Below, one piece after another: positions 21,376 to 45,185 of a stretch of 64,000 bases of DNA. The notes beneath the pieces were generated by a model that saw only the letters and a program-made list of their open reading frames with translations, did not search any database and had not been told where the DNA came from. This DNA is from Nitrosopumilus piranensis (GTDB lineage: Archaea > Thermoproteota > Nitrososphaeria > Nitrososphaerales > Nitrosopumilaceae), in assembly GCF_000875775.1 (NCBI RefSeq), contig NZ_CP010868.1, forward strand, positions 1,189,707 to 1,253,706, given 5' to 3'. Position 1 is the stretch's first letter, and the number at the start of each line of letters is the position of its first letter. The position numbers and the translations under genes are program-made.

Positions 21376-21395
21376 ATGTTAACACCATAGTACAA

Positions 21396-21455
21396 TGACG
21401 AGAGGCCTGCTTTTCTGCCCAGAATATATGCCTAGAGTTCGTTTCACTCTCGTCA
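21396..21455 (+). ncRNA. Candidate structured small RNA, copy 1
   Basis: About 60 bases in a non-coding gap. The ends TGACGAGAG and CTCTCGTCA pair perfectly over nine bases. Inside, TTCTGC and AGAATA (21413-21426) form a small hairpin, and AGAGT/ACTCT could form an alternative stem near the 3' end. The 5' part matches the locus at 44671: same octamer, nine-base spacer, same hairpin arms. It is not a tRNA (no D or T arm geometry) and has no canonical C/D or H/ACA boxes. The flanks extend the pairing (TACAA with TTGTA). Likely a small RNA gene with its own promoter. Confidence 0.6.
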
Positions 21456-21516
21456 AATTGTACAAGTTAATTTTCAAATGATTATAAACTAATTTTCATA
21501 TCCGTGATTATTGAGT

Positions 21517-44291: not shown

Positions 44292-44411
44292 ATGGATCTT
44301 AACGAGTTACACCAAAGAGAGATAGATTCGCTTAGAGATGAAAATATCGAATTAAGAAAAAAGATAGAAGAACTAGAGGCCAAAGTCAAAGAATTAGAGA
44401 GCAAAAAATGA
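44292..44411 (+). CDS. Coiled-coil microprotein
   Basis: A 39-residue protein, almost purely a coiled coil (REIDSLRDENIELRKKIEEL), with heptads up to the C-terminus. The start of the following zinc-finger gene overlaps its stop (ATGA), so the two are translated together and may form a complex. Confidence 0.65.
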   Translation: MDLNELHQREIDSLRDENIELRKKIEELEAKVKELESKK

Positions 44412-44596
44412 ATTTCAACTGCGTATTCCCAGATTGCAATTACAAGCAAAACGATATTACAGAAGATGAATTTCTAAAACACTTGAAAGAAAACCACCAT
44501 GAGGAGATTATTAGAATTTCAAAAAAGGAAAACATACCAATCAAGATGGCAGAGATGATTACAATATCAAACTCCAAAGTATTCATTAATTCATAG
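44408..44596 (+). CDS. DUF1059-like zinc-finger protein
   Basis: A 62-residue protein with CVFPDCNY at the N-terminus and HLKENHHEE at about 25-33, giving a C-x4-C-H-x4-H finger of the DUF1059 type. The C-terminus is an unstructured or beta tail. It overlaps the coiled-coil gene by four bases. Function unknown. Confidence 0.65.
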   Translation: MNFNCVFPDCNYKQNDITEDEFLKHLKENHHEEIIRISKKENIPIKMAEMITISNSKVFINS

Positions 44597-44640
44597 ATTA
44601 GAATTTTCAACAAGTTAGCATTAGGTGATAATCAAGATCA

Positions 44641-44650
44641 ATCTTAAATA
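44641..44650 (+). promoter_or_regulatory. Promoter box of small RNA copy 2
   Basis: ATCTTAAATA, identical to 21366-21375 and also 30 bases before the conserved TGACGAGA. Confidence 0.6.
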
Positions 44651-44670
44651 TCAATTTGGCGTATAATTAG

Positions 44671-44772
44671 TGACGAGAAAACCGTTATTCTGCGTCGTAG
44701 AATAAAGGTATGGAAAGCATTTCATGTTAGGTTTGCGTCCTAGGAAAAACATGCTTTCCGTGTGTCTCGTTG
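44671..44772 (+). ncRNA. Candidate structured small RNA, copy 2
   Basis: About 100 bases in a non-coding gap. TGACGAGA (44671-44678) pairs with TCTCGTTG (44765-44772) using two G-U pairs, where copy 1 at 21396 uses Watson-Crick pairs, a compensated change. Then come nine bases, TTCTGC, five bases and AGAATA (hairpin 44688-44704), as in copy 1 apart from loop size. A long second hairpin, GGAAAGCAT with ATGCTTTCC, is unique to this copy. A T-rich stretch follows. Three-way junction fold predicted by eye. Confidence 0.6.
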
Positions 44773-44834
44773 TTTTCTAAAAATCCATTTTAATACAAAT
44801 AGTATTTTAATGCCAAAATAAAGAACAATTTGAA

Positions 44835-45185
44835 ATGACTGAATTAAAAGTTCAAGGTTCTGGAGGATACGTAATAGCAGATTTAACAGAAGAACAAGCA
44901 AAAAAAGCAGATTTAGGGGTTGGAAAATTATTTTTGGCTCCAATCGGAAAGATTGAAACTGAAAAAATGCTTAAGCATTATTGCAATAATTGTGAAACAG
45001 AATTTGATAGTCCACCAAAAATTCAGTTAGAAGAAAGTCCTAATGAAGAAGTTGCAGATAATTTGATCCTAATTGAAAGAGGTCAATACGTCTGTGAAAA
45101 ATGCAGTTCTGTTATCGGCGAATACAGAGAATTCAAAAAGAAAGACGAATCAAGCGATGTTGGAAATGCAAAACCTACTGGATGA
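44835..45185 (+). CDS. Zinc-ribbon-containing protein, unknown function
   Basis: A 116-residue protein with an N-terminal beta-type domain (GSGGYVIADLTEEQAKKA), a CNNC at about 50-53 and CEKC at about 86-89, making one zinc site. The tail is charged. The ATG at 44835 lies 62 bases after the small RNA. No family recognised. Confidence 0.65.
   Translation: MTELKVQGSGGYVIADLTEEQAKKADLGVGKLFLAPIGKIETEKMLKHYCNNCETEFDSPPKIQLEESPNEEVADNLILIERGQYVCEKCSSVIGEYREFKKKDESSDVGNAKPTG

Follow-up and report, generated by a model that had tools for sequence, protein, structure and literature searches.

A covarying three-helix RNA of the Nitrosopumilaceae, very probably the product of an independent small RNA gene

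The described systems with which the present RNA is best compared are Thalassoarchaea ncRNA 1 (Tan1), a 229-nt RNA of marine Euryarchaeota whose expression has been measured (PMC5069720), and archaeal regulatory sRNAs such as s479 of Haloferax (PMC8155600). For the Nitrosopumilaceae, a search of the literature found no described small regulatory RNA. Members of this family are among the most abundant cells of the ocean and are drivers of nitrification. Here we describe a segment of a 64,000-nucleotide stretch of the Nitrosopumilus piranensis genome (contig NZ_CP010868.1, positions 1,189,707 to 1,253,706; hereafter the window), positions 44670-44778 of which almost certainly constitute an independent structured RNA gene. 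This RNA is previously uncatalogued and represents a new family seen only in ammonia-oxidizing archaea of the Nitrosopumilus family.

The small RNA is approximately 105-109 nt long and folds as a three-helix junction, composed of a closing stem (P1) and two hairpins (P2 and P3). Folding of the strand 44668-44780 yields an energy of -37 kcal/mol, compared with -21.3 +/- 2.9 kcal/mol in dinucleotide shuffles (z = -5.44). Two covariance models were built, R1 from 20 sequences and the broader R2 from 55; R1 scores the segment at 105.6 bits (cmsearch, E 3e-28), the window's own sequence being one of its training set. The original prediction had delimited an element at 44671-44772. The element is real, its limits are better drawn at 44670-44778, and the features ascribed to it (a TTAAATA box, TGACGAGA, nine bases, TTCTGC/AGAATA, GGAAAGCAT/ATGCTTTCC and TCTCGTTG) are all present. 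The locus comprises the following parts:

44636-44651, forward strand: promoter, with a GATCA box at 44636-44640 and the TATA box TTAAATAT at 44644-44651; conserved columns at fixed spacing
44652-44669, forward strand: spacer between TATA box and RNA, here CAATTTGGCGTATAATTA; ATTTTGACGTA-like in most homologues
44670-44778, forward strand: the small RNA, a three-helix junction, as indicated by the R1 match, the fold z-score and covariation
44671-44678, forward strand: 5' strand of the P1 closing stem, TGACGAGA; 96% of cells paired, double-sided changes in three of eight pairs
44681-44709, forward strand: P2 hairpin with tip CTGCGTCGTAG; double-sided changes in nine of 13 pairs
44712-44759, forward strand: P3 arm with base GGAAAGCAT/ATGCTTTCC; double-sided changes in six of nine base pairs
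44722-44729, forward strand: near-invariant P3 internal-loop element TCATGTTA, present in nearly every alignment row
within 44712-44759, forward strand: variable upper hairpin of P3, TAGG/CCTA in the window
44765-44772, forward strand: 3' strand of P1, TCTCGTTG, from fold and covariation
44773-44778, forward strand: U-rich 3' end TTTTCT, a probable terminator

Conservation and covariation in relatives place this RNA far beyond chance. In the 55-sequence alignment, which was fitted to the covariance model and is hence biased towards the structure, 93.5% of cells are base-paired, a value that falls to 35-59% when partners are slid by 1-3 columns. Double-sided changes occur in 18 of the 30 pairs (10.3 expected from shuffling) and in 92 cells (about 21, precisely 21.3, expected), with contributions from P1, P2 and P3 alike. 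A plain MAFFT alignment of 20 sequences, for which the structure was taken from a single member, gives the same picture: nine double-sided pairs against 2.2. Stem conservation and structural selection, as originally proposed, are thus borne out by the relatives. The particular compensation first put forward, a change of the 3' arm from TCTCGTCA to TCTCGTTG, compared non-homologous sequences; true P1 compensation lies elsewhere, for example at one pair that changes from G-C to A-U in six sequences.

Two conserved parts are left unaccounted for by pairing: the tip of P2, which is partly paired and reads TGCGTMGTA (M = A or C; UGCGUMGUA as RNA), and the P3 internal-loop element TCATGTTA, the RNA form of which is UCAUGUUA. 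The second hairpin had been regarded as an optional, variable module carried on a common 5' platform. This does not hold across the family, since P1, P2 and the P3 base are kept in essentially all rows of the 55-sequence alignment, with variation confined to copy number and the upper half of P3. Upper P3 is strongly clade-dependent: the window's clade carries TAGG/CCTA, for example, where Nitrosotenuis-type sequences carry ACGAAA/TTTCGT. A loop-loop kiss between P2 and P3 (GCGU with ACGU) was considered and rejected, as it is not kept in L019, L088 and L096, the alignment being judged by eye.

Several diverged relatives were observed alongside the typical members. A very diverged paralogue (L085:3340-3438, minus strand) has a normal copy about 400 bases away and a TTAAATAA box of its own, and two further diverged paralogues (L104 and L082) have changed P2 tips. 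In another genome (G018) a second copy (L030:1501-1606) keeps the fold without the GATCA/TTAAATA promoter and is possibly silent. Finally, in L079:3075-3187, a homologue belonging to a different genus within the family, the P1 and P3 stems persist and both conserved loop elements are replaced, which makes it a useful case for testing the role of the loops.

The sequence upstream of the RNA is as distinctive as the RNA itself. It follows the pattern GATCA-nnn-TTAAATAT, and among 73 upstream regions anchored on the TTAAATA-like box, 62 have the first base of TTAAATA exactly 26 bases ahead of RNA position 1, a pattern that includes the window. The upstream columns of these homologues read GATCAtnnTTAAATAt, with GATCA columns conserved at 90-97%; the GATCA box is probably a BRE or a factor site. 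A distance of 26 bases agrees with the start distance expected of archaeal TATA promoters, so that the predicted RNA start falls where such promoters should initiate. At the other end, most homologues carry a U-rich tract after P1, typically TTGTTTTAA. Judged by sequence, the locus therefore forms a self-contained transcription unit, with both the promoter of its own and the probable U-rich terminator by which an independently transcribed archaeal sRNA gene is recognized, and from these signals we infer its transcription and the exact ends of the RNA. In the whole genome (1,713,078 bases, one contig) GATCAWNNTTAAATA occurs once, at this RNA, and the extended promoter motif likewise occurs once with up to three mismatches allowed. 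The motif was not seen upstream of the RNase P RNA, tRNA-Ser or 16S rRNA genes, and a regulon sharing this promoter was rejected because no other gene carries the motif.

The RNA adjoins a zinc-ribbon gene on the same strand, whose ATG lies at 44835, approximately 57-60 bases downstream of the RNA end, in line with the distance of about 60 bases given at the outset. This arrangement could suggest a leader or riboswitch that acts in cis on this gene, given the shared strand, the 57-base interval and a neighbourhood that is conserved in the window's clade. Flanking genes, however, form different sets in different clades. The largest clade has AspRS (recognized by eye) accompanied by small unknown proteins, the window's clade has the zinc-ribbon protein and a tRNA methyltransferase of the TrmI/GCD14 type, and several Nitrosotenuis-type genomes have citrate synthase (also recognized by eye); further contexts occur as well, so that the RNA holds no fixed place before one gene or regulon. 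Moreover, one relative (G034) has a zinc-ribbon homologue (57.5% identical) with conserved upstream sequence and without the RNA, its RNA being located on a different contig, and in several genomes the intergenic stretch 44784-44829 contains sequence whose conservation is independent of the RNA. We therefore consider a leader or riboswitch extremely improbable; transcription solely as part of a longer mRNA is likewise at odds with an RNA that is separable from the zinc-ribbon gene. The varying neighbours, together with a zinc-ribbon gene that lacks the RNA elsewhere, make an independent, trans-acting RNA gene the most likely reading, as the original prediction of an independent structured RNA had favoured. 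The zinc-ribbon protein itself matches only the TFIIB zinc ribbon in Pfam, weakly and below threshold. Just upstream of the RNA, 44292-44596 contains two small overlapping reading frames, one for a 39-aa coiled-coil-like peptide (44292-44411) and one for a 62-aa protein whose C2H2-like finger reads CVFPDCNY...HLKENHH (44408-44596); the window's clade alone conserves the two beside the RNA.

The family has a narrow distribution. Matches by blastn were found in 27 of 61 relatives, every one within the genus Nitrosopumilus, a few weak ones consisting of neighbouring intergenic sequence only. R1 matches 66 of 95 genus genomes and 44 of the 56 of good quality; the 12 good-quality genomes without a match imply that the RNA is dispensable, or has diverged past the model, in some lineages. 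In a 300-genome sample of the class, R1 matched five genera of a single family, the Nitrosopumilaceae (the genus and four further ones), and nothing outside it. Of 397 genomes sampled from the phylum, R2 found a match in 32, all Nitrosopumilaceae, with no homologue beyond that family in the sample; these large scans with R1 and R2 used stricter filters and may miss weak relatives. The core pattern, searched in 84,980 species, matched 66 stretches, all archaeal, and those with a genus name belong to the Nitrosopumilus group. The homologue-bearing genera include Nitrosopumilus, Nitrosarchaeum, Nitrosotenuis and Nitrosomarinus. No Rfam 15 family reaches its gathering threshold at 44670-44778, and one homologue searched against Rfam at E <= 10 hit only a nematode snoRNA model, far under its cut-off. 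Literature on Nitrosopumilus and related terms yielded no description of this RNA, and an earlier sighting is possible, for example in early small-RNA metatranscriptomics of the ocean. Each matching genome has between one and five copies, in varying positions, which might point to a passive repeat or to a relic of a mobile or viral element, but the core pattern has zero matches in 2.9 million viral contigs, and nearly all copies retain the specific promoter and the pairing, which is unexpected for a passive repeat; such an origin is most improbable.

The segment had been presented as the second copy of a family whose first member lies at about 21393-21458 of the window. Neither R1 nor R2 finds that first copy in the window, even at E <= 10, and among the loci of its homologues only one (L114) gives a marginal match at the right place (E 0.12). 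The supposed hallmarks of the pair dissolve in a similar manner: most homologues of the present RNA have eight bases between ACGAGA and TTCTGC, the nine-base spacer being confined to the clade of the window and a small number of further ones, and AGAATA is absent from the homologues of the first copy. We treat the two RNAs as separate: the models do not connect them, and each of the two seemingly most telling features, the nine-base spacer and AGAATA, is lacking among the relatives of one member of the pair. The 21393-21458 segment is a separate conserved RNA candidate of about 60 bases, with a stem GACGAGAG/CTCTCGTC and a near-invariant interior (GACGAGAGACTTGCTTTTCTGCC...GCCTAGAATTCGTTTCACTCTCGTC in its relatives), preceded by its own TTTAAATG-like box and then GATCGCGTATA; its blastn matches lie in 15 of 61 genomes, all within the genus. 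Both RNAs are preceded by a TTAAATA-like box, close with a CGAGA/TCTCG stem and have TTCTGC downstream, whereas they differ in length, interior, promoter and conserved elements, and the smaller one is outside the reach of the covariance models. A very distant relation between them may exist.

What such an RNA does can be approached through its conserved elements. A small peptide read from the conserved ATG was ruled out, as the frame encodes peptides that range from 1 to 66 residues and share neither length nor sequence. A housekeeping guide or ribosome-related RNA (H/ACA, C/D, rRNA-binding or tRNA-like) would agree with the strong structural conservation and small size. Against this, box C (RUGAUGA) and box D (CUGA) of archaeal C/D box sRNAs are found in only four and five of 55 sequences, and the ANA box near the 3' end that marks archaeal H/ACA sRNAs in two of 55; there is no Rfam snoRNA, SRP, RNase P or tRNA match at this place, and the RNase P RNA of this genome (RF00373) lies elsewhere. 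Complementarity and duplex energies of the conserved elements with rRNA are no better than those of shuffles, and the lack of a match in some complete genomes also speaks against a housekeeping role, which is therefore quite improbable. A trans-acting antisense sRNA, in which the P2 tip, or UCAUGUUA together with neighbouring bases, would pair with mRNAs as a seed and block their translation or alter their stability, has more to recommend it, as the gene is independent, with its own promoter and a U-rich 3' end, and a short unpaired element is conserved over genera and paralogues, as seeds often are. U-rich 3' ends of this kind are bound by Lsm proteins. Yet CTAACATGA, the complement of UCAUGUUAG, has 16 sites in the genome compared with 14 for the reversed control, none of them at a clear translation start (exact 9-mers, one genome), and we regard an antisense function as a doubtful possibility. 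Although these base-pairing tests have low power, the lack of excess rRNA complementarity and of any gathering of CTAACATGA at starts favours protein binding over base-pairing.

We thus lean towards an independently transcribed, trans-acting non-coding RNA of the Nitrosopumilaceae whose junction presents two conserved elements to a protein. Transcription would start at about 44670 from the dedicated TATA promoter with its GATCA box and end within the U-rich stretch that follows P1. The resulting RNA would then fold into the three-way junction, fixing the P2 tip UGCGUMGUA and the internal-loop UCAUGUUA in position, and these two would most likely form the binding surface of a protein partner, whether in an RNP or in a protein-sequestering or scaffolding RNA. 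A more specific proposal, namely a lineage-specific RNP or protein-titrating RNA of marine ammonia-oxidizing archaea that is the sole user of its promoter element, so that one transcription factor or TFB would control one RNA and this RNA would in turn be a global regulator, is unlikely. With a sharply defined, well-covarying RNA gene and a one-of-a-kind promoter, and with cultured-type species among the carriers (for example G063:C1:630613-630723, minus strand), expression, partner and function are all directly testable.

Like Tan1, the present RNA is an orphan structured non-coding RNA of an abundant marine archaeal group; it is set apart by its description, since Tan1 is a 229-nt euryarchaeal RNA with measured expression and the RNA at 44670-44778 is known from sequence (PMC5069720). 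With archaeal regulatory sRNAs such as s479 of Haloferax it shares the status of an independent archaeal small RNA gene (PMC8155600); no relation in sequence or structure is claimed, and the present family is distinguished by its compact, conserved fold and by two elements that are nearly invariant.
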